A stretch of DNA of 64,000 nt, taken from positions 22,861,754 to 22,925,753 of the forward strand of contig CAIIXF020000011.1 of NCBI GenBank assembly GCA_903813345.2. The letters are read 5' to 3'. Positions 3,441 to 62,951 of the stretch are shown in pieces. The translations under genes were made by a program, and so were the position numbers. The stretch comes from Owenia fusiformis (taxonomy: Eukaryota > Annelida > Polychaeta > Sabellida > Oweniidae). A model generated the notes under the pieces. It was not told where the DNA came from. It saw nothing but the letters and a program-made list of their open reading frames with translations, and made no database searches. How positions within the stretch are numbered: position 1 is the stretch's first letter; the number at the start of each line of letters is the position of its first letter.

Positions 3441-3526
3441 CAATAAACTATTTTACCTTATCATTATTATATAAACTCAGTATAAACAAAACAACCCATA
3501 TTTGTTTGAAGGTTTTGGCAGCAATT

Positions 3527-30818: not shown

Positions 30819-31597
30819 TTATGTTCATGTAGAGTATAAATATGGCTGTGAGAGTCGTACATGTAAAATTATTAATATAAAATTAATATAAATAAATATT
30901 GAGCCAATTAACACAAAACACAATACCTAAGAAATTAATGGCTAATTTAAGTTAATTAGCTACAAGAGTTTAGAATTTGACATAACTGTTAATTAGCTCA
31001 ATTGGATATATTATAATACCATCTCCAACTCATCTTCTTGGGCGAAAATAAGGCCCCAACTGGTGGTGTAAGCTGGGGAAGGAGGTGAGGGAAAAGAATC
31101 GAAATGTATAACTTACATTGATGTTTAAGGATTTTTTAAGGACCTAGGGAGAAGACCCTCCAACTTCAATCCTATCGATATCTCGTCTGAAGTCTCATCT
31201 CGTACTCTCGAGATCTGAAGCTTGATGTTTCGTTCAGTGTAACTTACCAGAAACATTTACCTGGGATAACCGGGGAATGGTCTTCTCAGGGCTTGTTCAT
31301 ACCTAAACCTTAACCGACTCTCACATTGCCATAAATGAAATTATTGTCAATAATTTGAATTTATGTTCATGTAGAGTATAAATATGGCTGTGAGAGTCGT
31401 ACATGTAAAATTATTAATATAAAATTAATATAAATAAATATTGAGCCAATTAACACAAAACACAATACCTAAGAAATTAATGGCTAATTTAAGTTAATTA
31501 GCTACAAGAGTTTAGAATTTGACATAACTGTTAATTAGCTCAATTGGATATATTATAATACCATCTCCAACTCATCTTCTTGGGCGAAAATAAGGCC
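30819..31597 (-). repeat. B2-A2-B1 terminal repeat block of the Ngaro-like element
   Basis: B2 is 30819-31055, A2 is 31092-31360 and B1 is 31361-31597. A2 and B1 abut exactly. The B units share GAGCCAATTAACACAAAACA and the A units share GACCTAGGGAGAAGACCCTC. A 36-bp spacer separates B2 and A2. Confidence 0.9.
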
Positions 31598-32076: not shown

Positions 32077-32238
32077 CTACCTAATATATTTTCTAAAGGC
32101 TAAAGATTTCCATCTCCCAATCTTTTTGATAGTATAGTCATCAAGTCCGAGATTTGCTGCCCATGTAGCCCCGCCTATCCGCAAACTGTGGCATTTGTAG
32201 AAGGTAGGATCTACCTGACATTGAACAAAGAGTTTGTA
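32077..32238 (-). pseudogene. Ngaro-like element: distal part of the tyrosine recombinase region
   Basis: On the minus strand this part reads HSLRIGGATWAANLGL followed by IGRWKS, the HxxR region that ends the catalytic domain of tyrosine recombinases. It is the 3' side of the recombinase region, separated from the rest by the nested 13.1 kb element. Confidence 0.8.
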
Positions 32239-33560
32239 ACACCCTTTTTTTTGAAATGAGAATTGATCAAATAATGAGAATATATAGTTCCACTATTTTA
32301 TGAATTTGATTTGACCAAAATTTATGCCCGGCATAAAATTTGTTCCAAAATTTATGCCGGGCATAAAATTTGTTCCAAAATTTATGCCGGGCATAAAATT
32401 TGTTCCAAAATTTATGCCGGGCATAAAATTTGTTCCAAAATTAATGCCCAGCATAAAAATTGTTACAAAGTTCATGCTAGGCATAAAAATTGTTACAGAA
32501 TTTATACCCAGTTTAAATTTTGTTACAAAAATCATGCCATGCATAAAATATTGCTTTGGAGATGGAATTTGTTTCAAATGCTAGAATCATTATGCCAGGG
32601 AAAAAAATTGGGGGAAAATTAATACTTTCACCAACATCAATTTTTAGTCTTTTTCGGCCATTATTTCAATGCTCTAATAAACTTTTAGTTTTCTGCAAAC
32701 AAGCATTTTACCACTCATTTCAGCAGTTAATAACAAAGAAGCATTTACTTGTATTGTATTTATTTTTAACAGTTAACTCTTTATTTTCCATGCATATAGG
32801 CTACAACATATTTATTCTAAGGCTATTGTATTAAAGTATACTCCATAAATATTGTGTATATATTTTTGTCAAGTATTTTAAGTTGATTTTAACTTAATTT
32901 GCAGTCAGTAGTGTTATTTAGAGCTTCAAATGTCATTTCAATCCAATGTTGACTTGAGATATCCACAGATTTGCAGAACTTTTAACTACAACAGGTTACT
33001 CAGTTGTAATCCAAATGTAACGATATCATGAGGTGACCATCCATCATATACAGGATGTCAAATAAGTCCCATCCCACTGCTACAGCTAAAACCTTAAAAG
33101 ATGGTACCGAGTATGATATACCATTTGAAAGGTCACCTAAAGTATCTCAAGTAATTTAGATGAAATTTACCTATATTTTCATGATGTCCAGAAATCAGTT
33201 AAATTCACTGTGATATGCATCTTGAGCTCACTTGACTTTCTGATACATGATTTTTAGTATCCTGCTAAATACGTCAAATTGCCATGTTTCTAGGTCTATG
33301 GTCACCTTAATTGATAGCAGTTTTGTGACATTGATTGACATGTACCAGATATAACACATATTAAAGTATCTTTGGATGATCTTTCCAATGATGCATTAAC
33401 TTGGTACCATACATCTTGGTTTGGGCTTTAGAGGGGGAGGGGGTGGAACTCACAACACCCTGTATATGAGGAATTTTAGGGTTTGTCTTATTCATATAAA
33501 ATCCCTAACCTTGTAATTTTCACTATCACTAATTGATTGGATAAGACGCCTGTGAAGGTT
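32239..33560 (+). repeat. left TIR of the 13.1 kb element
   Basis: The order is a terminal unique ~75 bp, then ~30-bp units reading AAAATTTATGCCGGGCATAA plus AATTTGTTCC (32319-32530, four clean and three decayed), then diverged sequence to 33046, a MITE (33049-33465), and a last matched block 33468-33560 (shared ATGAGGAATTT and TTGATTGGA). Each 30-mer is centred on the palindrome TTTATGCCSGGCATAAA, a likely transposase-binding site. Confidence 0.75.
33049..33465. mobile_element. MITE with TACAGGRTGT ends
   Basis: The left end TACAGGATGT and the right end ACACCCTGTA are inverted, with TA on both outer sides (a Tc1/mariner-type target). It sits exactly where the left TIR of the 13.1 kb element departs from the right TIR, so it is a later insertion into that arm. 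The interior is non-coding and contains a GAGGGGGAGGGGG run. Confidence 0.65.
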
Positions 33561-34822
33561 AGCGAGCTATATCTACCGCTATTGCCTGATGAATTACCCC
33601 GATATACCCCCCTTACCTCATTTTGATATTAGATTCTTTAATGACCATGAAAATATCATAATGTCATGCGTTTCATTTCAATCGAATTCTACTCGCACAC
33701 ACATGTGTGATGTCACTGATAAAACATAGCCATGGGAATAAAGGTATGTAATACACCAGCTATGTCACTATGACATGAAATATGCCTTCGTGTGATTAAG
33801 ATGTTATAGTTGTGTAATCATTCATAGTCAACTGTTTTCAGTTTTCTGCTTCATCTGCTGTTAGTGCTTCCTTGCACAGGGCACTGTCGTTTCTTCATAT
33901 CAGCACTGGTTTAATAATAAGGCTCTGATTCCATTATTGCAACATTTTGTCTCAGGTAGTTTGATAATCATTTCACTGTGAGCAGTCTGGACAGTGTGAG
34001 ATGTGAAGTCTAGACACTTCTCACTTCTAGATGCATTTTCGTGTCTTGGCCTGGTCTTCTAATCCTCACATGTATTTTTATCAGGAACTGAGTTTTGCAG
34101 TGGCAAGTCAATGTAGCCAAGCTGAATAACTCAAGACGGTCAGTGTTTGGTATTCTAGAGCCACAGTCACAATAGGCCTAGCTGATGGTGAAGTTACGAT
34201 ATGTCATTTTTGTTGATTGTTTCTTTTGACAATTTTATGATTTGTATGTAGGTTTTGGATTCGAAATAGATCGGGAGTATCAGTATCAATCAGCGACCTT
34301 GGAAATCAGTTGATTCTAACACCAATGACAGGGAACATCTTCTGCAAACACTGAAAAATGAGAAAATTCATTATTGACATTATCAGTCAAAATCTAATAC
34401 TGTAGATTGGGTTAATTTGGTGCCTGCTTTAATTTGGCAATTTGGCGAAATAGAAAAAATGTCCAATTCACATCTTCGCCAAATTTAGAAAGGATCTGCG
34501 GGAAATTTCCAGGGAATTTTGTACGGTGTATTTAAATCCCTTACGTTTTAGTTTTTACAAAATCTGAAAAGAGTAAGCTTTACAAATATCAATATGATTG
34601 AGCTACCACGCGGAAGCCAAATTTTTGAATAATGAATTACTAGCTAGATAAAGTAATTGAATTGAAGGAATTGATGTAGCAATTTGTATTTTATTTGAGT
34701 ATGTCATCTATGTATCTATGGAAGTTGTGGCATACATAGCAATGTCCAAGCCCCAGTGTCCGTCAAATCAAATGGCTGCCATAGCCTGCCAATATGCAAA
34801 TAAAAAGTACCATGGGTACTGG
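33561..34822. other. interior of the 13.1 kb element, nothing recognised
   Basis: No exon, array or strong palindrome is seen. The sequence does not resemble the corresponding stretch at the other end of the element. Confidence 0.45.
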
Positions 34823-36002
34823 GCTCACATGGTGTTGCTCAAAAGTGAATGGATAATGGCTAAAATGGCAGAGAAGAAACGGGTATAATTTTTTTCTGAT
34901 TTTTTGCAACAAAATTATTTCATATAACTACTCTTTACAGTGACATGGCTTTTTACAATGCAGGACACCTGAAATTATTTGTAAAGCTAGAAAATGGGCA
35001 AAAGTGAATTTTGCAAGACAAAATGGCGACCATTTTAAAAATAGGCAAGCTTTTGAACCAGTAGTCATAGGGGAGTTTTCTGTATTGATGTTGAACAAAA
35101 ATAAGTTAAAGCGGGAATCCTATTGACATGGTTTTAAGGCAAATAGTCCAAAAGTGGATTTCGCGAGAGAGATGGAGAAATCAAAGATAACTAAAATGGC
35201 TGAAAATAAAAAATGGATAAAATGTTTTGCGGATTTTTTGTAACAAAATTATTTCATAAAACTACTTTTTACAGTGAGATGGCTTTTTACAATGCAAGAA
35301 ACCTGAAATTATTTGTGAAGCTTGGAAATGGGTCAAAAGAGAATTTCGTGAAACAAAAATGGCAACCTAATTGAAAAAAGGCAAGCTTTTGAACCAGGGC
35401 TCAAAGGGGAGTTTTCTGTATTGATGTTGAACAAAAATAACTTAAAACTGGAATCCTATCGACAGAGGTTTTAAGTCAAATGGTCCAAAAGTGGATTTCG
35501 CGAGACAGATGGACAAATAAATGTTAACTAAAATGGCTTAAAATAAAAAAATCATTTTATACAACTACTCTTTACAGTGACATGGCTTTTTACAATGCAG
35601 GAAACCTGAAATTATTTGTAAAGCTAGGAAATGGGCCAAAAGTGAATTTCGCAAGACAAAAATGCCGACCATTTTGAAATAGGCGAGCTTTTGAACCAGG
35701 AGTCATAGGGAAGTTTTCTGTTTTGAAATCAAACAAAAATAAGTTAAAAGGGGAATCTTATCGACGCAGGTTTTAAAGCAAATGGTCCAAAAGTGAATTT
35801 GGCGAGGGCAAAATTGCGGCTATTTTGAAAATAGGGGAGCTTTTGAACCAGGAGTCATAGGGGGTTTTCTATATTGATGTTGAAAAAATGACTTAAAACG
35901 GGAATCCTATTGACAGAGGTTTTAAAACAGGCCAATATATTGTTGACAGCCAGACAGACAGACGGACAAGTGAGTAATTGCAATAGCTCACCATGTGAGC
36001 TA
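34823..36002 (+). mobile_element. second Helentron-like family (tandem core, RGAC repeat, 3' hairpin)
   Basis: The left end holds GCTCACATGGTG (34823-34834). The core has two ~335 bp monomers and a partial one (starts near 34857, 35188 and 35526), each with ACAAAATGGCGACCATTTT or a variant and AGCTTTTGAACCAG. A short AGACAGACGGAC microsatellite (35953-35969) precedes the terminal hairpin AGCTCAC-CAT-GTGAGCT (35986-36002), which pairs with the left end. The plan matches the first Helentron-like family although the end sequences differ. Confidence 0.5.
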
Positions 36003-36389
36003 AAAATGGCAAAATCGCCAAATTAAGTAGCACCAAATTTAAAATATTAATACTATTGAGTTGAGTGTAAATGTATCCAAACTCAATGCTGAATGTAGTG
36101 ATTAAATTGCCTGCATTGCACATTGTCAATAAAATTCAATGGTTTTCTCATATTTCATGTTGAGTTATCCTAAAGGCCTAATGCAAAATATGAAAAGTTT
36201 AATCACAAATCATTTAAATTATTACTTTTCATGATTTTATTAACTGTATTCAAGACATTTTTGAAAATGTGACTTTTGAAAAACATATAGAATCTATTAA
36301 AAGCGTCACCAAGTCAATGTTTTCGCTATAAATCAAGCAACAATGGTCTACACAACCGGTAATAATATAATAGGTCTTATATGTGTTAT

Positions 36390-36805
36390 TATAACAAAAC
36401 CAATGTCATTGCTGTTTTTTAAAAATAAGTTTCCAAATCTTAGATAGTATTAATCGAGAATTATTAAAATTGAACGGAGAGGGAGTGAAAGGAGGGGGGA
36501 GTAATATGTTTTGTAGGTGGAAGAATTTTCCACGATTTTGTGTATTTGAAAACTGATCTAGTAAGTAAGTAACAACTCGATGTTACAACTCTTTAAGAGT
36601 GAAAAATAGGGACATTTGGATTTATTGGAAATAAAGTCAAGTTACATCTCTTATCATATGTCTTATAGACATTACTCCCCCTTCTGTTCACTCCAGCTCC
36701 ATTCAATTTTTATTACTTTCGATTATTTTTTATATAACGTATCATAACAAATTTCACAAAACCAGCAATGACAATAGTTTTGTTATAAAATAATAACATT
36801 ACGTA
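36390..36805. repeat. hairpin element
   Basis: Arms 36390-36515 and 36680-36805 pair imperfectly (shared CCAATGTCATTGCTG against CAGCAATGACAATAG, and GGGGGAGTAAT against ATTACTCCCCC). The loop is ~165 bp. No protein is encoded. Confidence 0.6.
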
Positions 36806-37644
36806 CAAATATTTATAACAGATCCTGTAGATGACATTTACACATTTCAAATGTTAACATTCTCTTAAAAAATAAATCTTCCAGATTTGTTCTCTCACGA
36901 AAATCAGCTACCCCCCCCCCCCCTCCGCTCGTTTCTTCTAATCACTGTGCGTGATCATTATAGAAACAAACATTTAGAATTTGAAATCATTAAATAAATC
37001 TCTTAATGCCCCCATATAAACTTTAAACCATTGTGGCTAACTGTACTCTAATACTTGACACTATTATATTTTGGGATATTGAAACTTTGCGGCTATTATA
37101 TTTCGCTAATTTCAATTTCAATTTCACCATTTCCTGGATTTTGGCTATTTTCTGAGGATTTAAACAGGTGCATATGTTAGATCAATGCATTATCTCCAGG
37201 AAAAGCACTCATAGAGATGATAAAATAATTTCGACTTTGAGACTGGGAAGATGCAAACAGCCCATCTACATGAAATGTTGTTCTGATTTTCAACCCCTTC
37301 CACCCCTGCTTTTCAATTTTTGTTGCATCAATATGTTGCGTTTTGACACACAGTTAACCCCTTTAAAGGAATAAAAAATTATGATTTAATAGAGGTTGAG
37401 GTGCTACGTGCTGTTGTCCAAGATATGTTATTGTAAATCTTATCCAAATATGACAATGGGTAGGAGTAACACGTTTACATCAGGGAAAAATAAACCAGTG
37501 AAATCCATGAAATTAAATAGCCACAATATGGTGATTTTTCAAAATTCGTTAAATTTACCGGGATCAAGTGCAGTAAATCATGTCATAGTGATCCCAAGAA
37601 AACAACTTCACAAAAACTTCACTTTCTACCAATTTTTGAGAATG
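36806..37644. other. no recognisable gene
   Basis: This stretch has a 14-bp C run (about 36911-36924) and two plus-strand open frames of 68 and 84 codons without recognisable domains or splice context. I take the frames as chance. Confidence 0.4.
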
Positions 37645-37915
37645 AAATAAAATGTCTTTCCGAACCTTGTTGGAACAAAATAGCATATACAGCATGTTTT
37701 AGACAGACCTCTCATGTACAAAGGAATTTTTTGGTTGATTTTAAAAAAGTATTCAAAAAATTAAAACAAAATCCCCAAAAATAGATAAAAATCAAGACTT
37801 TTGAAATCAACCAAAATTTCCTTAGTACAATTACAATATTGAGAGACCTAAACATGTTGTGTTTATGTTGTTTTGTTCAAATGAGGTACGGAAGGATGTT
37901 TCATTTCACTCTGGA
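37645..37915. repeat. hairpin element
   Basis: Arms of ~95 bp (37645-37745 and 37800-37915) share GGTTGATTTT and CATGTTTTAGACAGACCTCT (imperfectly) around an A-rich loop. It is a compact MITE-like palindrome inside the 13.1 kb element. Confidence 0.55.
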
Positions 37916-38264
37916 AACGTAATACCAAGAACAAAACAAGTGTTTGGTTTGTTTTCTAAAACAATATAGATGAAAGTATATATATTTTTTTCAAATTATA
38001 TTGTTACCATTCAAAAGATGACCATGTAATTGACGATGTTTTAAATTTTTAGATTTTTTTATGACTGGTTTAAGAGAAAAGTGTGTTCAAAAAGTTCTCC
38101 ATATCGAATCCACTCCTTTGCTTCAAATTTTCACACATGTTACATGGTAAGAAGTTCTAAAGCTGATTAACATTTTGCACTCTGGCAGCCATCTTGGAAG
38201 TTTTTAGAAAAATTTGGTCATCCTCACACTGGTATCGAAAGATTTGTCCGTTGTGACGGAGCAT

Positions 38265-41200
38265 GTTATTTTTCATAAAAACACTAAAAAAACATACAAT
38301 TTATTTTTTAACTCATATGTTTCATTATCACGGTGACCAAGAGTTAACAGTGCAAATCGGCCCGGTCGTGTTTTTTTTAACTCTTTAGTCGTGTTTTTTT
38401 GAAAATTTGAGAGGTAGGTTGATAAATTTGGTCATGAAATTGCTGTCACTTGACTTTATGTAAAAGTAAGTAATTTATATTGCTTTCCATACTATATATC
38501 TTAACTTCAGGTATTCGTAAACGTGTTATTTGCACGAATCGTATGCTATAGTCTTGTTATATCGGGAAATGAGCAGTTCTGTCAGTGTTATACATATTTT
38601 TGCCTGAAAATCACTTGCCTGACTTGTATTCAATGAATACATCGATTCATAAGGGAAGCATTCACAATATGTGCGAAAATCAAAAGTTAGAAGAGCTTAA
38701 ATAAGTAGCAATTGACCGAATAATATTTTTTAGATTAAACTCTTTAGACGTGTTGAAAAGATTGCGGTTAATGACGTTGACCTGTTAGTGAAACGTTCTA
38801 GACGTGTAGAGACATTGAGGTTTAACGATTTGGAAGTGGGAAACAGCACAATTAACATTATGTATTTCCCAAAAAATGATCTCAATGTGGAAGAAGTTGT
38901 TGTCTGAGTGACACCATCTTAATTATAAATGATTAACAATAATCAAATGTACGACATAATATGTCAAGATTGATCTATGGGATCACTACCGAATTTGATA
39001 CTTAATCAAAATGGTTAGAATCAGACACGCATAGTTAATGCAAGCGAGCTTTGCCTCGTCGCTCGTCATTTTGAAAATTTTACCAGTCATATTATTTTTT
39101 AATTGCCCTGTCGTTCATTAAATGGCTCGTTGCTATTTTTGAATTTGCCTCAGATACGTTTTAAAACGTCCCTATTGGCTTTAAACTCACTTTTCCCTGT
39201 CATGAACGTAAATAAATTTATTTAAAATGAGAGGAAATGTTTAGTTTATGATGCTCTACATGTAAATGCATATATATGATCACCTAATGTAAGGAATAAC
39301 TCCACCGTTATTAAAATTGTATGCTCAATATCTATTAGGTTTGCCTCAGGATTTTTAACAATTTGATTCGATGTTATTCCCTAATTCGCCTCACACAATG
39401 CAATACAATTTCAATTTTAATTTTCAAATTGCAATAGGTAAAAAACGCTACATATGCTGCTATCGTTCTATGAGTGATCTATGAACTGTACTGTAACATA
39501 GTTTTCTAGCGAATTAAATTACAACATCTGTTGATCTTGTTAAATCATATATCTGTCTTTTTTATTTATTCTTATTTATTCATATCTTGACTACAAATTA
39601 CAATAAACGGGTGACACATAATGTATATTCCCGTGTTTATACTAATACATGAACAGATGGTGGGGATCTGCTTGTGTAATAATGCATACTATTTGTTTCT
39701 GGTTAATAGTGTGTGTCGCACTAGGCCCGCAAATTATTATAAAACCAACATAAACTATAAATTATATTATTGATTAAGAAGATACTTTTTGAGTTTTAAC
39801 TTCTAGCAGAAATACGAGATAGTAAGAATTTAGTTTTTCAATTTATTTTAGTACTAGATCGTGGATAGGGATGTCAATTCTGAACAGATCAGTCGGATGA
39901 ACCTTCTCATAATGTTCAAGTATTCTTATGAGCACTTTTGAAAGAGCACGCGTGGCACTTATTCCGAGGAACTGAAATTACAAAATATGTGAATAGTCAT
40001 GTAGTACAAACACTTATCTTCAAAGTACTAATACGATTATTTTCAGAAGCACAGACAAATTATTAAGCAACAAAACATGGTCAATGTGAACAATATTACA
40101 AGACAATTCAAAGTCGTTAATTTTATCACGTCTAAAACGTTATCTTTACAATTCCAAAACGTTAACATGCTTATTATAAGACACGTCCATGACGTTATAT
40201 TGTCCCTTCTCCATAGTTAACTCCACTTTCTACATTTACGGTCATTTATGGCAATTTTAAGATAAATACAGTTAAAATATTTATACGATATTTAGAGTAG
40301 TGAATATTATTCCACGTTGTTGAATGGATTGTCTGTTTAAACTTGATTAAATAACACTAAATGCAAATTAAGTACATATTTCTGGCACTTTTGGTATATA
40401 ATTGCGATTGATATGAAGTATGATGGATTTATCCCCAAAATAGATTCGTGGGTATGAAGAAGAACATCTTAGGTAGAAGTCAAGATATGTAAGTTTGTAA
40501 AATATAGAATATTCTTACCATTTTGCTCCATTCTATCGAATGTCGCATCCCATGTTCTTACAAAACACGACTAAAGAGTTTAAAAAAACACGACCGGGCC
40601 GATTTGCACTGTTAACTCTTGGTCACCGTGATTATCAGATTATATCAAAGAATTAACTTACATGATACATTGATTGAAATACAATTCCATTCAATTCCAT
40701 AACGCTAGGAGTAAAAGCTATTGAAAATGGCGCCACCTGGTTAGTATCAAACTCTAAAATGTTCCATTTCTTTTTTAACTTTGCAATGGCACGATATAGT
40801 GACAAAGTAACATTTACATATGTTTTCAGCATAACTCTGAAGGTATTGATAAAATAATTGATGTATTTGGTCTATTTAATTTCTTTTATAAAAAATAATG
40901 TTTAATTTTTCGTCCACTGTGAGGGAGCAGTTGCAAATACAAACTGCCCGTCACACAGCGGACAAAAACTTTTAAACATTATTTTTTATGAAAAATTAAA
41001 AAGACCCAATACATCCATATCTCATTAATACATTCAGAGTTATGCTGAAAACATATGTAAATATTATTGTGTCACTATATCATGCCATTTAAAAGTTAAA
41101 AAAGAAATGGTTCATTTTAGATTTTGATACTCTTGTGCCATTTTCTGTTAGCTTTTGTTCTTAGCGTCACTGAACTTCAAATAGAAGTGAAGCTTATCCG

Positions 41201-41310
41201 CAATGATATATTATAATATGCATTGCATGGAGTAGGTTATTTTCTTTGATTAAACGAAACATATGAGTTAAAAAATAAATTGTGAAGTATTCTTAATGTT
41301 TTTATGAAAA
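38265..41310. repeat. large hairpin element carrying a nested TIR element
   Basis: The left arm is 38265-38328 plus 40636-40925, and the right arm is 40945-41310. The two share AATTTATTTTTTAACTCATA, CATATGTTTTCAGCATAACT and ATAAAAAATAATGTTTAA. The centre near 40935 carries GTCCRCTGTG..GGG words on both sides. The left arm is interrupted by the element at 38329-40630, which is missing from the right arm. Confidence 0.65.
38329..40630. mobile_element. Transib/RAG-signal-like TIR element, 2.3 kb
   Basis: The inverted ends are ~72 bp and nearly identical, starting CACGGTGACCAAGAGTTAAC. Both sides are flanked by a perfect 5-bp duplication ATTAT (38324-38328 and 40631-40635). The uninterrupted right arm of the surrounding hairpin gives an approximate empty site. 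CAC-starting ends with 5-bp duplications fit Transib and ProtoRAG elements; CACGGTG differs from the RAG heptamer CACAGTG at one position. TTTAGACGTG-like words lie forward in the left half and inverted in the right half. No transposase is encoded. Superfamily is inferred from ends only. Confidence 0.6.
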
Positions 41311-41829
41311 ACAAATTTGATATCATTCATAGAAAAAGAAAAAAATTGAAAAAACTGATTTGAAAAGCGATCTATTCTCCTTTTTATGATTGCCATTTTT
41401 GTTTCAGAGAATTTTCTAAAAGTTCATAGATTGTACCTGTTAGAGCATTATATTGGGCACATTTCTGAAAAATTCAAAAGATTTTGTTCAGTGACCTTCC
41501 CTATTTCCTACTTTTAGCTATTTTTCAGTCACATTTTCAAAGGGCTGAAAAGGTTATTTCATCATGTTCAGGGTCATTCTGACCATGCACATTGTGATTC
41601 TGGTCCTGTAATTGATATGTGAAAATAGTTAAATTGACTGGAGGTCAAAACAGAACTCTGTTATCTTTGTTCAAAAAATCTCTAAAAATGCCAAAATTTT
41701 TGTCACTTCCTGTTTCGTCATTTCCTGTTAAGTATCATGGCACCTTAATGTCGGATAACTAGTTAGTAATTTCAATACTGGCAAATACTCAATTCCATTG
41801 ATGAACCGGCATTAATGGATTACTGTTAG

Positions 41830-43000
41830 CCTCTCAAAAGCCCTTGAGCAAAAGGTCCTTTTTTGAATATCAGTGACCATCTTTAAAATTTCTTCAAGAG
41901 CAAAGCTCCTTTGTCCCTAGATCACAGTGTTATAGCATGACGGTTACGTGAAGGCGATTTGCAAAACTTTGCGGTAACGATAACAAAAAATGGCGGATGG
42001 GAAAGGCAGCATGTCCTCTTTCTCGCCTGTAAGCAATATTCACAGATAAGATTTCCTTTTAAACTAGTTCCATTCGGTGACGTATATATGGATGGTTATA
42101 AAGACCGGGTCAAATCTGCCAGGTGGTCTACAAGAAACAGAATATAAGCTGTATACCTAACGACTGAGATATCAAAGTTCATAATTTTTTGTCCATTCTC
42201 GTGTTTTCTCAGTACATGTGCCTCAGAACCACTCAAAGTATTAACTGTAAGTAAACTGTGTATAAACAAGGCAAAAAATGACAAATCCAGAACAGGAACA
42301 TGGAGAATATCGTAAATAATAAGGTTTCAAACGCAATGTCGCAAAGTGTAAAAGATAGCAATGAAGAGATTAAGGATCAAGTACATGTACTGATGAAGAT
42401 GACAAAATTAATACATTATTATGGCTTGAGTATATAGAACATATTAAGTGGTTTCCAATGCTCAATTGGCTTTGTATGATTGTATGTAGGTTACATCTAT
42501 ATACCCCAAGGTTTTTAGGCAATTTTATGTAGACCATGCCCTAACAACAAAAATAAACAAATTACTAAATTTTGTGTAGTTTTGAATTTCAAACTCGACA
42601 GTTTTTCTCTTATTTCATGCTATCCCCAGGAATTAATTTGCAAAGACTACCTTCAAAATATACATTACTGAATGCATCACCGAATGCAACACTTACATAA
42701 ATCGTTCATCCTTTCATTGATACACAGTAAAAGTAGAAAATAATGCACCAACCTTAGTTTCTCTTCCATCGTAGCCATTTTATTGGATAAATCAGTTAAC
42801 GTAGCCGTCCAACCTCGTTTTCAGAGGTGGCGTAACCGTCATGCTATAACACCGTGTAGATTGTGCATTAGCATATAACCAACCAACCAGCCAGCCATAT
42901 AAAACTTGTATTGTATTTGGTATTTAGATTCAGATTGATCAAAGATTGCATTTTTACAAAAAATGGTGGCCATTTGAAATGAGCAGACATGAAAATATTC
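41830..43000 (+). repeat. Helentron-like core fragment split by an insertion
   Basis: 41860-41922 (CTTCAAGAGCAAAGCTCCTT, TGTCCCTAG) continues after the insert as CATTAGCATATAA and AATGGTGGCCATTTGAAAT, following the order of the family's core monomer. It provides the pre-insertion context for the 934-bp element at 41923. Confidence 0.6.
41923..42856. mobile_element. Transib/RAG-signal-like TIR element, 934 bp
   Basis: The left end is CACAGTGTTATAGCATGACG and the right end (inverted) CACGGTGTTATAGCATGACG. Matching continues through GTTACG, giving ~26 bp TIRs. The flanking 5-bp duplication is TAGAT on both sides (41918-41922 and 42857-42861). The left terminal heptamer equals the RAG signal heptamer; no nonamer-like ACAAAAACC is seen at the usual 12- or 23-bp spacing. 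Internally AAAATGGCGGATGGG on the left mirrors a related word on the right. A 62-codon open frame is not recognisable. Confidence 0.65.
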
Positions 43001-44036
43001 CCTTTGATAGATGAAAATATAGCCCCCTCCATCAAAAATATTAGAATTAGGTCAGGCCTTTTTGGAAGAAATGAAGCTAGCCTGATGAAAGCCTTTTGAC
43101 AAAAGTTCAAGCTTTCAACTCAAAGCCAAATCTGAAAAATCATCAAAATATTTTGAAATAAAAAACTGATTAATTATTCACATTTCATATCAGTTTTCTA
43201 TGAACTTTATTTAGATCTATAATTTTATTTGGGCAATAACAATAACAAACATAATTTCAATACATACTTACATAATGTTGATCAGGAAGATCTATTCAAT
43301 AGCCTAACATTTTTCCCTCAAAGATTTTCTGCCAAGGCTGTGTCTTGTGTATCTGTCTGCTGATGACTCATCAAACAAACAGGGTCAAAGGTCAACATGT
43401 CAACAAAACTTCTTGTGTCATGGCAACCAAGCATATGACAAGCAGAAAGCAGTGTAAGATACAGAATTCTCAGAAATATGTGTCATCAAACAAACCATGT
43501 AAACAAAGCTTGTGCCATGACAACCAAGGTCATAAGTATTAGCAGACAGCAGGAAGCAAAAGACCAAAAGACTGACTGATGTGATTTTAGAACAAAATTG
43601 TTGCAGAATTTGGGGTATGTTTTCATGATATTATATAAATTATTATTTTTTGAATATAAACAACTAATATGCATAACATAATTTAAAATATCTTAGAATA
43701 TTTAAGAATGAGCTAATGATACTGCAAGATCAATCTTCAACTAAAATCTGGGACAAAAATTGTCAGAATTGAAAAACTGAAAATGGGCCTAGGAAAGCTA
43801 TTGGAAATTGAAATTATTCTTAAGACATTTGTCATGTTGTTCAGGCTTATTGAGCTACTGATACAACTTAAAGATTACAGTTGAGCTGGATGGAATTTGG
43901 GGTAAATATGAAATAGCTTGTGTTCCATTCATTGCTGAAAAAAATTACAGTTTTGTCTTTTGTGATTTTCAGAATGCTGGAAAGGTGTCAAAGGCTAAGC
44001 TTAGATGCATTAGCCAGTTGCTAAAAACATACTTAC
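43001..44036. other. interior of the 13.1 kb element, nothing firm
   Basis: No tandem or inverted repeats stand out. Short frames on both strands lack recognisable content; one on the minus strand (43486-43674) is hydrophobic by chance composition. Confidence 0.4.
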
Positions 44037-44135
44037 CACTTGACTCCCAATTAGAAGATGGAATAGTGATTCTGTGGACCTAAACTGTTTTTCATGTTGT
44101 GACTGTAGCGAGTAGGCCTCGTATACCCTCTTCAC
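44037..44135 (-). other. exon-like segment inside the 13.1 kb element
   Basis: A 99-bp open segment on the minus strand is bounded by a CCAG acceptor and a GTAAGT donor, both phase 0. It reads KRVYEAYSLQSQHEKQF, then STESLFHLLIGSQ. Composition is less AT-rich than the surroundings. It lies ~165 bp inside the right TIR. It could be a captured host exon or an exon of a lost transposase gene; I do not recognise the family, and no partner exon was found. Confidence 0.25.
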
Positions 44136-44299
44136 CTGGATCGGTATTGATGTTTGCATGCTGAGGACCTTGATATAACAATACAACCATATGTTTCCTC
44201 GTGACATTCATCAAAGGAAACTTTTGCCGTACTCTACGTATGTACATGTGTATATAGGAACTATGTATAGTCATATACATTGATTACGTCCACCAGTTG

Positions 44300-45351
44300 A
44301 TATTCTGACACAAGCGTCTCTTCCAATCAATCAATTTGTCATAGTGAAAATCACTTGATGAGGAATTTTACACAAACAACCAAAACCCTCAAATTCCTCA
44401 TGGGAGCCAAGGATAGCTACTACTACATGTCATAGTTACATCTGGATTACAACATGTACAATGGAGTAACCTGTTGTAGTTAAGAGCTCGGGAAATCTGT
44501 GGATACTTCAAGTCAACATAGGAGCTCCAAATAATAACACTACTGCACTAGGCCACTGGGTGACAATAAATTCAAGTCAAAACCAAAATAAAATACTTGA
44601 CAACAAAATACAATCACCATGTTTATACAGTGTACTTATTAAATTAATAATAATAATATATTAATAATAAAAATAGTGCATATATTAAATAAAAAGTGGG
44701 ATTATTAAAAATAAATACAAACTATAGATAGTAGAAAGTAAACTTTTGTTTATTCATTGCTGTACTGACTCTTGTAATATTTGTTCAGTTGGTAGAAAAT
44801 TAAAACTTTTTTCTTCAAAATCCACAGAGCATTTAAATAATGAGCCAAAAGACTAAAAAAATAATGCTGGAATAAAATTAACATAAATTTTTTTGGACTT
44901 TATTTTTCCCCTGTTTTTATGTCAACACCAGAGACGTTGACATATTATTCTTCCTGGCAGTGGAATAATGATATTTGTAACAAATTCCATGCCCAGTTCA
45001 ATATTTATATGTGACATGACCCTTTTAACAAGTTCTATGTAGTGCATAACTTCTGTAGCAAATTTTAAGCCCGGCATAAATTTTGGAACAAATTTTATGC
45101 CCGGCATAAATTTTGAAACAAATTTTATGCCCGGCATAAATTTTGGAACAAATTTTGTGCCCGGCATAAATTTTGGAACAAATTTTATGCCCGGCATAAA
45201 TTTTGGAACAAATTTCCAAAATTTTATGCCCGGCATAAATTTTGGAACAAATTTTATGCCCGGCATAAATTTTGGTCAAATCAAATTCATAAAATAGTGG
45301 AACTATATATTCTCATTATTTGATCAATTCTCATTTCAAAAAAAAGGGTGT
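44300..45351 (-). repeat. right TIR of the 13.1 kb element
   Basis: Inverted counterpart of the left TIR. The outer ~75 bp are identical to it; the 30-bp palindromic units (TTTATGCCCGGCATAAA cores, 45060-45275) number about seven, with one spacing irregularity at 45205-45222. The inner ~850 bp align imperfectly (shared CAACAGGTTACTC and TCAAGTATTTTA). Confidence 0.75.
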
Positions 45352-46095
45352 TTTGTGAAGAAAATTGTTAAAAACAGAAGTCTTCACTGGAGCATCTCTA
45401 TAAATGAACAGAGGACCTGGTTTAAAAGATCTTATGTTCAGGTACAACTTCATATGTAATACTGGACAACAAGAAGGTAATTGAGAATTAATTGATATCG
45501 TAGCAGGAGATGAGCTATGTTTAAAATGCGGAAAGGTAATGGTGAAAAAGGCTTCATCAGGAGAGAATTTAATACTTTCTAACTGTAAGTTGTGTCCAGC
45601 GGAAGTACTTGTCATCTCACTACTTCTTAGTAAGCCAAAAAAGGCTGTAGATAACATAGCTCTGTACAAGACTTGAGCAAAAGGGTCAAACTCTACTTCA
45701 GAAGTTTTAGAAATCATTTTTTCTAACAAGGCTATGTTGATTGGCAATCTAGTGTCTATGGTAGGATTTTGTTTACAAAAACCGGAAACTATTTGAGAGA
45801 CTACATAAGAAGTAGTGGGATCCTTGAAATTGTTAATTTTGTGAAAATATGATATACCTGACAGAATTGACTTGATTGAATTAGGGGCATACTTTTTTAA
45901 ACGAAGATGTGCTGCGAAAAGGCTAGCAGAGGCTGGGGTTAGAGGAAATTCACCTATACCTGTCTGGGAGTTGAACTGTACTAATAAATCCCATGCTCTT
46001 TCATATGACTTTCTGGTAGACGGGGCTTGGGCAGCTTGAAGTGCTTCTAAAACGATAGTGTCCAATTGTGAGGTAAATACTGATCTGGTACACAT
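45352..46095 (-). pseudogene. Ngaro-like element: tyrosine recombinase, proximal part
   Basis: The N-terminal core-binding part (APSTRKSYERAWDLLVQF, then LRLKKYAPNSIKSILSGISY) and the first catalytic region (MLSTAFFGLLRSSEM, with the conserved Arg) are recognisable. The recombinase integrates the circular cDNA. Its start overlaps the end of the RT-RNase H gene in another frame, as is common in the group. The nested 13.1 kb element separates it from the distal part. Confidence 0.8.
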
Positions 46096-47831
46096 GACGG
46101 ATCTTTAGATGCTGTCGGAATAAGCTTCTGAAAGTAAGATAAATTGTTTCTAGATAAAGCGTCAGCTGCAGAATTATGAATACCAGCAATGTGTTCGCTT
46201 TTGAACATGATATTGTTTAAGAGACATTTTAATATCATGGGACGTAAGAGTTGCATGGACGTTTGATTGCTGGTGGAAAATTTATTTAGAATGTTCACTA
46301 CTGCTTCATTGTCAGAATGTAGGATAACTGTGTGTCCAGACATAAAATTAGCCCATGTAAGTATAGCAGTAACAATGGGATATAATTCAAGAATATTGAT
46401 GTCCAATTCTTTCCATTCTGCTGGCCATTCCCCTTTAAACCAAAGATTATTGCAAACGGCTCCATAACCTATCGTAGTAGAAGCATCGGTAAATAGATGC
46501 AATTGTTCTCTTGTCTCTTGTTCTTCTGTAAGGAAAATAGATTTCCCATTAAAGTGTATTAGGAACTCTTTCCACATTAATAAATCCTGCATAGCTGGAG
46601 TGTTGATTAAGATTTTATAGTGTAGCTCCTTCACTTTTTTAGATAGATGAATAAGTCTTGAAATAAATGATCTACCGAAAGGAATCACACAACAACAGTA
46701 GCTAAGGAATCCTATAGCAGATAAAAGTTCTCTTTTTGAGACTTTCTTTGGTTTTGGCTTATTGGTAATGGGGTTAATGTTACATAAAGTGTCAATGATT
46801 GTTTTGCCTTTGACTATTTTTTCCACAGGCAAACGAGCTTCTAATAATAAAGTGTCTAACTCTATTCCAGCGAAAGTTAAAGTAGTGTTAGGTAGAAAAG
46901 TTTTCTCTGGAGACAAAGGCACTCCGATATCTGCACACATACTCAAGAATTTGTTTAAATCGCCAGAACATTGTTCTTCATTTGCTGACAGAATTAGAAA
47001 ATCGTCAAGGATATGTATCATGTAAGGGATGTTCAGTTTATTCTTAGCGATCCACTCCAGTGAAGTACTGAAAAGTTCAAAAATTGCACATGATGAAGAA
47101 AGTCCCATTGGCAGACATCTGTCGAAATAAAATTTGTTATTCCATTTCATACCCAGAAGATTATGGGTGGATTGATGCATAGGTATGATACGGAAGGCAG
47201 CTTCGATATCGGTCTTACACAAGAAGCAACCTTTTCCTAAATGTTTTATAATATCTATGGCTTGCTGTACAGTTGCATATTTAACTGTAGAAGTTTCATC
47301 TGGGATAGTATCATTTATGGATTGGCCTCTGGGATGTGATAAGTTGTGAATAACACGGAATTCGCCTGGAGATTTTTTAGGAACGAGAAATAAGGGTGAA
47401 ATAACATAGTTATCAAATGGTGGCTGGTCAAAAGGTCCCAGTATTCTACCAGCTTTAAGCTCTTTGTTTAATTTTTTATCGAGAGCTTCTGGGTTCTTAG
47501 ATACGGATGACAAATTATCATGAGTAATGTTGTAATGTTCTGGCATATCAGAGTGAGGAAATTTAAATCCATACGTGAAACCTTGAACTATTTCTTCTTG
47601 ATGTTCATAACCTTCGAGCCAATATCTGAGTCTTTCAGGTTTAACTGGAGTAACAACTTGTGTTGACATAAGTTCACTCGAAGGGTTTTTTGGAGTCTCC
47701 AGTACTTGAACGCTTTTTGTTGGGGAATTGGGCTTGCCTGTTGTTGTTGCGGGAGTAACATTTTGACATGGAGTGTTTGGAACGATTGCAGGTTGGGCAG
47801 GTGTGGTTAAAGGGACAAGGGGATTTGTCAC
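46047..47831 (-). CDS. Ngaro-like element: reverse transcriptase-RNase H
   Basis: The RT shows SPGEFRVIHNLSHPRGQSIND, the CKTDIEAAFRIIP block (motif A), PMGLSSSCAIFE (motif B) and ILDDFLIL (catalytic DD). RNase H follows with HLFTDAS, ILELYPIV, LHSDNEAV and AADALSR, supplying the acidic residues. This sequence style (IHNLSxPxGxSIND) is typical of DIRS/Ngaro elements. The frame overlaps the end of the gag-like gene, suggesting a frameshift or re-initiation as known for such elements. Confidence 0.88.
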   Translation of the reverse strand: MTNPLVPLTTPAQPAIVPNTPCQNVTPATTTGKPNSPTKSVQVLETPKNPSSELMSTQVVTPVKPERLRYWLEGYEHQEEIVQGFTYGFKFPHSDMPEHYNITHDNLSSVSKNPEALDKKLNKELKAGRILGPFDQPPFDNYVISPLFLVPKKSPGEFRVIHNLSHPRGQSINDTIPDETSTVKYATVQQAIDIIKHLGKGCFLCKTDIEAAFRIIPMHQSTHNLLGMKWNNKFYFDRCLPMGLSSSCAIFELFSTSLEWIAKNKLNIPYMIHILDDFLILSANEEQCSGDLNKFLSMCADIGVPLSPEKTFLPNTTLTFAGIELDTLLLEARLPVEKIVKGKTIIDTLCNINPITNKPKPKKVSKRELLSAIGFLSYCCCVIPFGRSFISRLIHLSKKVKELHYKILINTPAMQDLLMWKEFLIHFNGKSIFLTEEQETREQLHLFTDASTTIGYGAVCNNLWFKGEWPAEWKELDINILELYPIVTAILTWANFMSGHTVILHSDNEAVVNILNKFSTSNQTSMQLLRPMILKCLLNNIMFKSEHIAGIHNSAADALSRNNLSYFQKLIPTASKDPSCVPDQYLPHNWTLSF

Positions 47832-48990
47832 AAGTGAGTCCTTGATGGAAGGGAAAACAATACCCTAATGGAATCTCAGATTTGGACTGGGTGGTTTTTT
47901 GTGAATTTTTGGGGGGATAATACATCTTGTTGTCAGTAAAACCAAACATGTTTTGCTCATGTTTAGAGATCCAAAGAGTTGAAGCATTTGCATTAAGTTC
48001 TTTGGCTTTTAACCAGTATTCAAAATGTAGCATTCCCCACGGAAATTTTGTCTTTGCCCTTTCATCTCTAAATTTTTCGTCATACACCCTCCAACCTTGA
48101 TGTCTTTGAAAAAGTTCCGTAACAGAAACCATATATTTCAAGAGGTGTGGGGTTTGATCAGGAAATCTTTGGGTATAGACAGCAATAAATATACTGAATG
48201 CTCGGATCCATTCTGGAAATGAAAGGATTTTTCCTTTCTTTGAAGGGTTTAAATTCAAATGTTTTGATTCAAAAGAACCATCAGATTTCATTTCACAGAG
48301 GACATAATCATTGTTTTTGTCTTCTTCAGGGCCTTTGACAAGGGATGAAAGGGCAATATATTCGTCAGCCCAAATTTTATCTTTAAGCTTTTGGGGAATG
48401 AGGTTATGAAGGGGAGCAGACTGCATGGATAGAGAGAGTTGATAATCGATAGGATTGAAGTTTTGTGGAAAAGTTGAAGCAAAACTCGGTTGAGTAGTAG
48501 GAGGGAGTGTAAAACCACCTTGTGTTTGTCCTTGATTTGGAAAGGGCATTTGATTGGGAATGGGATTCATAGAGGCTACGGACACCTGTCCTTGTAGCAT
48601 GGCATTTGGGTTGGGAATTAAGCCATAAGCTGTAGAGACAGGTTGGAAATTAGGAAAAGCTGAAAGGTTAGAAGGGGTGGGAGGGATAAAAGGGGTGGGA
48701 GGGATAAAAGGGGTGGGAGGGATAAAAGGGTAGGGTTGGATATTACCGCTTGATGCAAAAGATGGAATAGGGCGAGTAATAGATGATGTGGGTCTATTTA
48801 GAGAGAATGACATGTTGGGTTGGGATGGAATGGAAGATGTCGTGGAATAGGAAGGTATACCGGGACAAGTTGTTGTAAAGTTGCCTCTTATTAAAGTGGG
48901 CATAGACTTGGCTGCAGTCAGGGTATTAGAAGTGTGATACTCTTCTATAGTAATACTTGGGCTAGGATCAGATCCTTCAGTTTCAGACAT
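47674..48990 (-). CDS. Ngaro-like element: gag-like protein
   Basis: The 438-codon frame has a Pro/Ser-rich N-terminal third containing three near-identical FIPPTP octamers, a central conserved domain (SFPEWIRAFSIFIAVYTQ, WGMLHFEYWL) and a C-terminal zinc-finger region with CFPFHQGLTC, CPFNHTC and CNRSKHSMSKC. This order matches gag-like proteins of DIRS/Ngaro elements, presumed to package the RNA. Confidence 0.75.
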   Translation of the reverse strand: MSETEGSDPSPSITIEEYHTSNTLTAAKSMPTLIRGNFTTTCPGIPSYSTTSSIPSQPNMSFSLNRPTSSITRPIPSFASSGNIQPYPFIPPTPFIPPTPFIPPTPSNLSAFPNFQPVSTAYGLIPNPNAMLQGQVSVASMNPIPNQMPFPNQGQTQGGFTLPPTTQPSFASTFPQNFNPIDYQLSLSMQSAPLHNLIPQKLKDKIWADEYIALSSLVKGPEEDKNNDYVLCEMKSDGSFESKHLNLNPSKKGKILSFPEWIRAFSIFIAVYTQRFPDQTPHLLKYMVSVTELFQRHQGWRVYDEKFRDERAKTKFPWGMLHFEYWLKAKELNANASTLWISKHEQNMFGFTDNKMYYPPKNSQKTTQSKSEIPLGYCFPFHQGLTCDKSPCPFNHTCPTCNRSKHSMSKCYSRNNNRQAQFPNKKRSSTGDSKKPFE

Positions 48991-48999
48991 CTGGAATGA

Positions 49000-49450
49000 A
49001 ATAAGTAGTATTTATATAGAGGGTAAGCAACTTCAAGACATAATAATATTTTAGATAAATATAAATAGAAGCACATGCTCCTTTGCTAAGATGTATATAA
49101 ATATGCTGCCCATAGCTTAAGGCTAATCATAATAAATGCCCATAAGGCTAATCATAATAAATATGATTTAGAATACACTGCATAAATAAATGCATATGAT
49201 GTATAAAAAATATGGAATATCATAATATAAATATGATAACCTCTAAGAATAAAGGTAAAGTATACAATGCATGAATAAATGCATATGATATATAAATAAT
49301 ATGAATTTTTATCATAATATAAATATGATAACATCTAAGTCTAAAGGTATAGTATACACTGCATGAATAAATGCAGATGATATATAAAATAATAGATATT
49401 ATCATAATATAAATATGATAATATATAAGTAAGGAGGAAACTAAATTTCC
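49000..49450. repeat. AT-rich tandem repeat inside the Ngaro-like element
   Basis: Three to four irregular units of ~95 bp contain ATCATAATATAAATATGATA and ATGAATAAATGCA. They lie between the SGNH-hydrolase gene and the gag-like gene. TATA-like words abound, so a promoter for the gag-like gene could lie here; that is an inference. Confidence 0.6.
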
Positions 49451-49581: not shown

Positions 49582-50181
49582 CTAATAAATGTAATCAAGA
49601 AATCTCAGGACTGCGCCTTTCCAGGACTTGACCAAACGCTTTTCCCCTTTTGCATTGAGATGTATGGGATCGTGGGTGTCATCTATTAAATTCGACCATT
49701 GATTTTTATATTGGGTGGTATGTGGGTGATGGAGGAAGAAAAGTCTATTGTCCTTATGATGGTGAATATCATTTAACAATTTGAAATTGGTAGATAGGAT
49801 TTTTGAATTATACTGAATGCAGTCTGAAGTAGTATTGATTGAGGATTTGAAAGGATGCCATGAACGTTGAAATAGTTCTCCAATATAAAAGGCTTTCAAT
49901 GAAGGATGTATGTCTAAATATTGTTCAGCCAAGGTGATGAGATTTTCTGCAACAAAGGTAGATGATCTGTGAACCAGATCATTTTCTCCTAGCTGTAATA
50001 TAGCCATATCTGGATAGGGATTTTCATATTTTACACCATCTTGGAATTGTTTAATTGTATATACAATGGAGGTTTTATGATTAACTATGTCTTCCTTTAA
50101 TTTAAAGTCAAATTGGTTAGTTTCCTCTATTTTCCGGACAAAACTGTGGCCTATAATGTTGACCCTAATATTCTTAGGCAT
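49582..50181 (-). CDS. Ngaro-like element: SGNH-hydrolase protein
   Basis: 199 residues from the ATG at 50181 (the frame is open further upstream without an ATG). All four SGNH blocks are present: INIIGHSFV (Ser), a Gly-containing region near VNHKTSIVYTIKQFQDG, LQLGENDLV (Asn) and DPIHLNAKGEK (Asp and His). The fold belongs to GDSL-type esterases. Accessory hydrolase-like genes have been reported in some Ngaro-group elements; here it is the first gene, upstream of gag. The substrate is unknown. Confidence 0.75.
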   Translation of the reverse strand: MPKNIRVNIIGHSFVRKIEETNQFDFKLKEDIVNHKTSIVYTIKQFQDGVKYENPYPDMAILQLGENDLVHRSSTFVAENLITLAEQYLDIHPSLKAFYIGELFQRSWHPFKSSINTTSDCIQYNSKILSTNFKLLNDIHHHKDNRLFFLHHPHTTQYKNQWSNLIDDTHDPIHLNAKGEKRLVKSWKGAVLRFLDYIY

Positions 50182-50847
50182 ATCTAATTTCTTGTATAAT
50201 GGGAGAAGAAAAGGGAAGGATATTTTTGACTCCTGTCTTATCCTCAGAGTAAAGTCTATTATGTGCAATAAGGTGTCTGAAATATAGAAAGAAAAGGAAT
50301 AATATTATAGCTCTCTCAAGAGATAACTACATATCAAGTAATAAAATGATATCTGTACCTTTATGGTACTATGAATAATCCCGATATCAACCAGAAATCT
50401 CTGGAATGGGATAATAAATAGAATAGGTATATTTATTTAAAAGCCTACAAGGTAACTTACACTCGTAAATAAATGAAATATCTATCGTTAGATTGGATGG
50501 AGTCTATCGAAATTGGCACAAGAATGATAAGAAAAAACGCCAATTCGACCCCACATTATGCGGGTAATAGAACGTAGTTTTAGGACATGTACGTGACGTG
50601 TCCATCTTCATCAATAAATTAATCATTTTGTATAAATTCAAGTTTTAAAATTATATGTTCAAGATATCAATTGAATATTTCAAACAATAAAAACAACTAC
50701 AAAGGCATAAAAGACAAAAGATGAAACGTGTTTGAAATTTTTTTGAACATTTTTAAACTGACGTTTTTTGTGTGAAATATTACGATAAAATTTTCACAAA
50801 ACGATTCAGCGATAGATAAATGTATATACAAGAGATAAATGTCGATA

Positions 50848-51116
50848 AAAAGAATCGAAATGTATAACTTACATTGATGTTTAAGGATTTTTTAAGGACC
50901 TAGGGAGAAGACCCTCCAACTTCAATCCTATCGATTTCTCGTCTGAAGTCTCATCTCGTACTCTCGAGATCTGAAGCTTGATGTTTCGTTCAGTGTAACT
51001 TACCAGAAACATTTACCTGGGATAACCGGGGAATGGTCTTCTCAGGGCTTGTTCATACCTAAACCTTAACCGACTCTCACATTGCCATAAATGAAATTAT
51101 TGTCAATAATTTGAAT
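50848..51116 (-). repeat. A1 terminal repeat of the Ngaro-like element
   Basis: Matches A2 (31092-31360) over the full 269 bp with about one difference (TCGATTTCTCG here, TCGATATCTCG there). It contains CTCGTACTCTCGAGATCTG and GGGATAACCGGGG. This is the 5' end of the element in its own orientation. Confidence 0.9.
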
Positions 51117-51418: not shown

Positions 51419-52543
51419 TCATGATTCAATTTCTATATTTCTGTTGATATCAGAATTATCCACGTCCCTAGGTTTATTCCGCCCATTTGCCGTGGGTTTA
51501 ATAGTACTAATCCCACTCTGTATTCCTGTTTCATCATCCAAAATGATTGCATGTCGTCGACATTTTCGCACATTTTTACATGCCTGTTTAAACTGGCTAC
51601 TGAAGTAAATATAGATGGCAGCATTTAACCAACTGTAACAAGAGACGCTAACAATTGATGCGATGAATACATCGTAAAGGTTTAAGAGTTGCTGAAATTG
51701 TGGAAATGTTAATGTGATGTTACGTTCAGCTTTGTAGCCGAACAACCAGAAATAACTTGTGAGACAGATGCATTGTGGGAGCCAGCATATCGTGAAACAT
51801 ATGACGATCATGAGCATCATTTTTACTGCAGTCATCTTTGCTCTGATTGACGATTCAGATTTCACAGAGGATGGCTTCCGTAACACTTTGATAATGCTGC
51901 TATAAAGCACAGATATGGTCGCAAGTGGAATGATGTAACTAAACAAAGATTCAGTGATGTAGCCGTAAAGTTTTGGAGAATCACATAAGGCTGGTTGTAC
52001 ATTGTAAATTGTGCCATTGTAGTCTACTTTATACTGCTGTGAGGAGTAGGATGAGACCGGTATAGTGGCCAATCCTGCACTAAACAACCATACAAGGAGT
52101 AATATAAGACAGCATTGTTTCGGAGTAAATTTCTTCTTATGCGGAGACACGATACTCCTGTATCTGTCAATTGCTACAGCAACCATAGCCCATATGCTAC
52201 TGAGAGCTACCAAATAGAGAACATATAGCTTCACGAAACAGTTCTGTGACTTGAAGTTGTCTTTTATCCCGATCGCTGAGAGACCATCAATGGTGGCATA
52301 CACACTATAAATACTGAATATCAAATCGGAAATGCTCAGGGAACATATGTACAGATTAGCTGTAGAATGAAAAGCTCGGGTAAAAAGTATCACAAAAAGA
52401 ATGGTCCCATTGAAAACAATGTTAAGCGCCACTGTTATACTCAAAAGCACCATCATTGCGCTATAATATAATGTACTACCATTAACATGTTCTGCAACAT
52501 AAATATCCAATATTGTTAAATTCGCTTTAATCATTCTATCCAT
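51419..52543 (-). CDS. class A (rhodopsin-like) GPCR, intronless
   Basis: 374 residues with seven membrane segments. The N-terminus carries two glycosylation sites (NLT, NGS). TM1 has the conserved Asn in FNGTILFVIL, TM2 LSISDLIF, ECL1/TM3 the Cys in QNCFVKLY and the DRY motif in AIDRYRS, TM4 the Trp in LVWLFSAG, TM5 the Pro in SYIIPLATI, TM6 CWLP. TM7 has NAAIY where NPxxY is usual (Pro to Ala). ECL2 has a Cys in PALCDSP for the disulfide. The C-tail is short with basic residues (CRRHAI). The ligand cannot be told; aminergic Asp in TM3 is not evident, and a peptide-type or orphan receptor is more likely. It lies 300 bp beyond the Ngaro-like element and on the strand opposite to transportin-3. 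Confidence 0.9.
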   Translation of the reverse strand: MDRMIKANLTILDIYVAEHVNGSTLYYSAMMVLLSITVALNIVFNGTILFVILFTRAFHSTANLYICSLSISDLIFSIYSVYATIDGLSAIGIKDNFKSQNCFVKLYVLYLVALSSIWAMVAVAIDRYRSIVSPHKKKFTPKQCCLILLLVWLFSAGLATIPVSSYSSQQYKVDYNGTIYNVQPALCDSPKLYGYITESLFSYIIPLATISVLYSSIIKVLRKPSSVKSESSIRAKMTAVKMMLMIVICFTICWLPQCICLTSYFWLFGYKAERNITLTFPQFQQLLNLYDVFIASIVSVSCYSWLNAAIYIYFSSQFKQACKNVRKCRRHAIILDDETGIQSGISTIKPTANGRNKPRDVDNSDINRNIEIES

Positions 52544-61326: not shown

Positions 61327-61510
61327 ATAATATTTAAACTGATATGTGCTATACTTACAATACAACACGTATTTAACACAATACTCTAAAACATTTTATA
61401 CTATATTATCGTTATGTACTTGTACTAAAACTTAATATAAATGGTATTTTATACCCAACACTACATGTACTTTTCAGTAATTGACAAATGATGTGTTTAG
61501 ATGGTTAGTT

Positions 61511-62938: not shown

Positions 62939-62951
62939 TTTAATACCACTC

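Follow-up and report, generated by a model that had tools for sequence, protein, structure and literature searches.

The interrupted retroelement

We analyzed a stretch of 64,000 nt from the annelid Owenia fusiformis (GCA_903813345.2, contig CAIIXF020000011.1, positions 22,861,754 to 22,925,753 of the forward strand; "the window", numbered from its first letter), in which a Ngaro-type retroelement carries a 13,115 bp insert (32238-45352) in its recombinase gene. The recent insertion of this 13 kb unit, which holds eight nested inverted-repeat structures and no recognizable coding domain, is well supported by our data. The host element was annotated as follows:

30819-51116, minus strand: host Ngaro-type retroelement, with repeats A1 (50848-51116), B1 (31361-31597), A2 (31092-31360) and B2 (30819-31055)
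49582-50304, minus strand: weak GDSL/SGNH-like open reading frame (ORF), domain match below the Pfam cut-off
47674-49011, minus strand: gag-like ORF, named by position alone and without a family match
46047-47864, minus strand: reverse transcriptase (RT) ORF, RVT_1 1.7e-15; RNase H 0.0051, below the cut-off

The split direct repeats follow each other in the order A1 ... B1 A2 B2 on the minus strand, which is the layout described for Ngaro elements (PMC9210276), and the RT match is the one expected of such an element. The insert splits the putative minus-strand recombinase gene of this otherwise open copy, and the three remaining ORFs are open. Matches of the two recombinase pieces to Phage_int_SAM_4 (0.0021) and Phage_integrase (0.25) are weak and both below the cut-off. 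The left piece by itself aligns to positions 128-160 of Phage_integrase (E 0.25) and includes the stretch RIGGATW, which we take to be a conserved recombinase box. In viral_contigs, one stretch fitted the pattern of the Ngaro RT and no relative was confirmed. In this copy the GDSL/SGNH-like ORF precedes the gag-like one; in amphibian Ngaro elements such a domain is placed after the recombinase (PMC9210276).

The A repeats differ at 1 of 269 positions. The B repeats differ at 3 of 250 over the whole match and at 0 of 238 from 30818 on, and all three mismatches fall within the first 12 bases compared, which overlap A2 in the other copy. Divergence was counted in two ways, as 4/519 over all positions and as 1/507 without the outer 12 B bases; the latter count was used in the first tests because of this overlap. 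Repeats so similar under either count mark the Ngaro copy as young. The insertion is most likely recent too, and younger than the copy itself, barring retrotransposition of the whole composite. The original prediction had a very recently moved insert lying within a Ngaro-like element whose repeats are nearly the same; this location is confirmed, with sharp junctions, and a recent move is most likely.

Limits, ends and empty site of the insert

Reading the junctions base by base gave inverted ends AACACCC...GGGTGTT, with GTTTGT/AACACCC on the left and GGGTGTT/TTGTGAAG on the right, both base-exact; the limits 32239-45351 proposed before thus shift outward by one base on each side. According to repeat finding in the window, 32238-32371 pairs in inverted orientation with 45219-45352 (134 nt, 99% complementary), which bears out the inverted ends claimed earlier. 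The flanking target duplication was annotated as:

32234-32237, no strand: left target duplication TTGT (earlier read as TTTGTA, 32233-32238)
45353-45356, no strand: right target duplication TTGT (earlier read as TTTGTG, 45352-45357)

TTGT (4/4) with ends AACACCC is the shortest mutation-free reading. The pair TTTGTA/TTTGTG of the original prediction matches at 5/6 with ends ACACCC, and a 5-bp duplication TTTGT also fits but leaves one terminal base unpaired. The implied empty site is identical for all three readings. We prefer the perfect 4-bp TTGT and regard 6 bp as a possible but less favored length. An end at CACCC was ruled out, as the flanks then give no fitting duplication.

When the flanks are joined and one 4-base copy is removed, a 302-aa open frame results that runs into the RIGGATW of the left piece. 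Trims of 0, 2, 5 and 6 bases give frames of 282, 258, 257 and 280 aa, so that trim 4 yields the longest. This gain is modest (302 versus at most 282), and the weight rests on the continued domain. Base-exact junctions at inverted ends, a target duplication and a restorable empty site with a continued reading frame are all features of a DNA transposon with terminal inverted repeats (TIRs).

No further copy of the outer ~70 bp was present in the window (self-BLAST, pairs of at least 45 bits). Exact patterns of the outer end (viral_contigs and genome_contigs) and of the array unit described below (viral_contigs) found no match, although such viral and prokaryotic collections have little bearing on an animal genome. 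A composite of two complete foldback elements is not favored, because the terminal sequence has no inner copy among pairs of at least 40 nt or at least 45 bits.

When the insert was translated in six frames, with stops written as X, none of the six had a Pfam match at E ≤ 1; as a control, one frame of similar size with an intact RT gene was detected (RVT_1). The absence of a transposase recognizable by Pfam, as expected of a non-autonomous TIR transposon, agrees with the earlier view that the insert has almost no coding capacity. The window contains no tRNA genes and no Rfam match at gathering thresholds.

Inverted arms and subterminal arrays

Repeat finding, self-BLAST and an arm alignment extend the homology between the two ends far beyond the outer 134 nt, to 33554 on the left and 44309 on the right (self-BLAST):

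32238-33554, plus strand: left inverted arm, interrupted by nested element E1
44309-45352, minus strand: right inverted arm
32315-32549, plus strand: left subterminal 30-bp array, eight units in register, the outer four 29-30/30, then 26, 24, 22 and 21
45044-45275, minus strand: right subterminal 30-bp array, seven units of 27-30/30, decayed further in, with one 39-bp spacing

Identity was counted per 60 aligned columns, leaving out 33040-33466 (E1 and its edges). The first three blocks show 60/60, 59/60 and 60/60, amounting to 179/180 for the outer 180 aligned bases, and the next eleven full blocks range from 45 to 56/60 (75-93% over the inner 660). The arms had been described as strongly diverged internally; this applies to the inner part, the onset of divergence being abrupt rather than uniform. 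The step lies inside the 30-bp tandem array, with 2/191 mismatches (plus one 9-base gap) on its outer side against 19/100 in the next block (Fisher p 5e-8). In both arms the outer 30-bp units are intact, each with the near-palindrome ATGCC(G/C)GGCAT, and the inner units are decayed.

The inner arms are nevertheless homologous, with a score of 210 compared to a maximum of 53 among 200 shuffles. Given this homology and the abrupt step, the divergence of the inner arms predates the insertion; because they are far more diverged (75-93%) than the host repeats (at most 4/519), the arms were old on arrival. So large a step points to a recent homogenization of the outer ends, presumably by gene conversion or array turnover.

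Nested elements

The eight nested inverted-repeat structures were picked from self-BLAST and from a list covering 25 of 29 pairs, and partly by eye, as E2 was at first. They are given without strand:

33050-33463: E1, miniature inverted-repeat transposable element (MITE) of 414 bp, in the left arm only; ends ACAGGRTGT, arms 77/96
34414-36039: E2, 1.6 kb, AATTTGGTGC-type ends (28/31); no clear duplication
36347-36831: E3, inverted-repeat element of 485 bp; arms 118/157
37639-37912: E4, hairpin of 274 bp; arms 84/102
38266-41314: E5, small inverted-repeat element that E6 and E7 seem to interrupt; arms 59/65
38329-40630: E6, 2,302 bp, ends CACGGTGACC; TIR 72/74, ATTAT duplicated on both sides
40702-41167: E7, hairpin MITE of 466 bp; arms 230/262, no clear duplication
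41923-42856: E8, 934 bp, ends CACAGTG / CACGGTG; TIR 25/26, TAGAT duplicated on both sides

E1 has the AT-rich duplication ATAT on either side (or TATA if read one base further in), and its flanks, when brought together, can be aligned with the right arm, where E1 is missing. E6, with ends of the CACGGTG type, and E8 both have perfect 5-bp duplications; from base frequencies, the chance of such a match is about 0.004 for E6 and about 0.002 for E8. The flanks of E3, E4, E5 and E7 show no clear duplication. The continuation of the E5 arm past E6 is weak, as 45 of 500 shuffles reach its score. E2 contains tandem units of ~300-336 bp, a GACA/GACG microsatellite and a stem-loop AGCTCAC-CAT-GTGAGCT.

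Many related units, including two tandem pairs of 139 and 147 bp and ATGGCGGC-type motifs, occupy 677-9340; in self-BLAST they have short matches near 41876 and 42938, within the insert, and near 57124.

Origin and age of the insert

We consider it probable that an old foldback-like unit was transposed en bloc and in trans, with its cargo aboard, into the Ngaro copy, producing a 4-bp duplication. The insert would be a large non-autonomous foldback-type DNA transposon with an inverted arm of ~0.9-1.0 kb (without E1) at each end, and each arm would combine a unique sequence at its outer end with an array of 30-bp near-palindrome units, which are probable transposase-binding sites. A transposase encoded elsewhere in the genome would excise the unit at AACACCC/GGGTGTT, mobilization in trans following if the insert moved as a DNA transposon. 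The unit, presumably with the smaller transposons already inside, would then land in the young Ngaro copy, within its recombinase gene, and duplicate 4 bp. Recent homogenization of the outer ends would leave 179/180 identity outside and 75-93% inside. Trans mobilization en bloc, as originally proposed, stays the best reading and is favored by the old arms; its weaker part is the dating of the nested elements.

The nested cargo likely boarded ahead of the jump, although its dating is weak, and all age evidence for these elements is suggestive only. The ends of E6 and E8 together differ at 3/100 positions versus 1/507 in the Ngaro repeats (p 0.015). The arm divergence of E1, E3, E4 and E7 was rejected as a source of dates because such arms may differ at birth. 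Repeat finding listed no inverted pair of at least 40 nt in the Ngaro body, compared to several nested structures in the insert; the probability that all nested entries fall by chance within 13.1 of 20.3 kb is 0.27 for E1, E6 and E8, and 0.03 for all eight. The inner arms predate the insertion. That the nested elements are older than the host, as claimed earlier, is indicated at most indirectly.

Several points weigh against the scenario that we favor. With all Ngaro repeat positions (4/519) the comparison with E6 and E8 loses significance (p 0.088), and against the insert's own outer arms (2/191) it gives p 0.34. The arms or ends of small hairpin elements may differ from birth, and the density argument is weak. 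The length of a target duplication is not fixable from a single copy; continuation of the frame by itself has a 1-in-3 chance, and its gain in length is modest, as stated above. Neither a second copy nor an autonomous relative was seen in the window or in the viral and prokaryotic collections, and the sole Pfam control, an intact gene, says little about decayed coding traces.

These doubts bear most directly on the order of events. A smaller foldback element might have entered the Ngaro copy first, and some or all nested elements, notably E6 and E8, might have come later. We regard this as unlikely, although the intact 5-bp duplications and nearly identical ends of E6 and E8 would fit it, their entry has no direct date, and the test over all repeat positions does not separate them from the host. 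Ngaro repeats with at most 4/519 differences leave little time for several insertions, the Ngaro body has no listed inverted pair of at least 40 nt, and two rounds would be required because E6 seems to lie inside E5 (itself weakly supported). It is very unlikely that the insert entered an ancestral Ngaro element and that a single RNA of this composite was retrotransposed afterwards. Each round of retrotransposition renews the repeats of a retroelement, so their identity would then date that event and not the insertion, and the outer arms (2/191) indeed do not differ significantly from the Ngaro repeats (p 0.18 versus 1/507; 0.66 versus 4/519). Such a scenario nonetheless requires a ~20 kb transcript across a 1 kb inverted repeat and a recombinase in trans, and the three other Ngaro ORFs are still open.

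The nature of the insert itself could also be questioned. Its size, its long inverted arms and a possible 6-bp duplication recall in outline an autonomous large transposon, such as a Polinton-like element, that has strongly decayed or suffered internal deletions. Given that none of the six frames has a Pfam match at E ≤ 1, that much of the interior consists of other transposons, and that the AG termini of Polintons are absent, we find this highly improbable. An assembly error joining unrelated repeats is scarcely credible: assembly is difficult where both junctions carry long inverted repeats, but the junctions are base-exact, share TTGT and continue one reading frame.

Transposition en bloc, if the nest indeed travelled along, would give transposons inside a large foldback element a second route of spreading without enzymes of their own. 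The host retroelement brings a clock of its own, so that the insertion would be a case open to dating, and from the step in arm identity one could test whether conversion, rather than selection, keeps the ends of an element alike. A far-reaching version would assign the insert to an undescribed superfamily (AACACCC ends, 4-bp duplications, 30-bp near-palindromic arrays) that carries multi-kilobase transposon nests as one non-coding unit and in which gene conversion over 13 kb keeps the outer ends identical as the inner arms decay; we put this forward as a speculative idea that is doubtful at best.

Other features of the window

The following features were observed outside the Ngaro element:

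57706-63007, minus strand: possibly full-length non-long-terminal-repeat retrotransposon with an open 1,229-aa endonuclease-RT frame and a second open frame of 498 aa (GDSL-like match below the cut-off)
12338-15293: RT frame 14236-15069 (RVT_1 2.2e-29) between inverted repeats of ~155 bp (137/155), with 22-bp tandem motifs
15802-17000: element with inverted subterminal arrays of 15-bp units CCAGTTGTCCGAAAC, a second foldback-like layout in the window
19772-21097: 90-bp inverted ends, 84/90 identical, spanning 1.3 kb
51419-52543, minus strand: open rhodopsin-type receptor frame (7tm_1, 5.3e-32), ~300 bp from the Ngaro end

Comparison with known systems

Target duplications usually measure 6 bp in IS3EU and GingerRoot, 4 in Ginger1, 4-5 in Ginger2, 6 in Polinton and 4-10 in the MuDR group (PMC10045372); as these lengths overlap, the length of the duplication by itself excludes none of them. 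IS3EU ends are TA..TA, and those of GingerRoot mostly TA..TA and sometimes TG..CA (PMC10045372). The insert, unlike these, ends in AA(C)..(G)TT, and a 6-bp duplication would here include one mismatch. The integrase, polymerase B and other genes of Polintons/Mavericks have no counterpart among Pfam matches in the insert.

Among the nested elements, E6 and E8 resemble Transib/RAG-like elements in their CAC heptamer-like ends and 5-bp duplications, a likeness judged on 7 bp and the duplication length. The recombination signal sequence consensus is CACAGTG, and ProtoRAG duplications are 5 bp and GC-biased (PMC8289069), unlike the AT-rich ATTAT and TAGAT found here. No transposase for E6 or E8 was detected inside the insert by Pfam in six frames. 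The original prediction had listed decayed Helentron fragments, hairpins and MITEs; nested elements are indeed present, and the Helentron label, as yet unproven, fits E2 in outline only. With its tandem array, 4-base microsatellite and palindrome, E2 recalls the Helentron-associated HINE, which combine a tandem array, a 4-base microsatellite and a palindrome at one end, the oyster microsatellite lying in the flank opposite the palindrome (PMC7492417). In E2, by contrast, microsatellite and palindrome are on the same side of the array, and the units measure ~300-336 bp versus Cg170 in the oyster; no subTIRs were identified.

Judged by titles and the beginnings of abstracts, the literature listed by searches on nested or en-bloc transposon movement held nothing on point. 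In layout the insert is foldback-like, with long, internally repetitive inverted repeats as in Galileo (P superfamily) and Tetris; Galileo makes a 7-bp duplication. The insert has no transposase of any kind recognizable by Pfam. Many copies of the Drosophila Foldback (FB) element likewise have no transposase, and FB pairs can move very large segments. FB arms carry blocks of five 27-31 bp repeats, other elements (NOF) are often inserted in them, and the target duplication is 9 bp (PMC7642927). Since our insert shows 4 bp (at most 6 with one mismatch) in place of 9, it is not filed under FB. Foldback elements containing other elements are already known, which limits the surprise of our finding. 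The insert shares with FB, by layout and not by sequence comparison, the long inverted arms with unique ends, the subterminal tandem repeats (30 bp here) and the presence of other elements inside, and it stands apart in a far larger interior that holds a whole nest of them.

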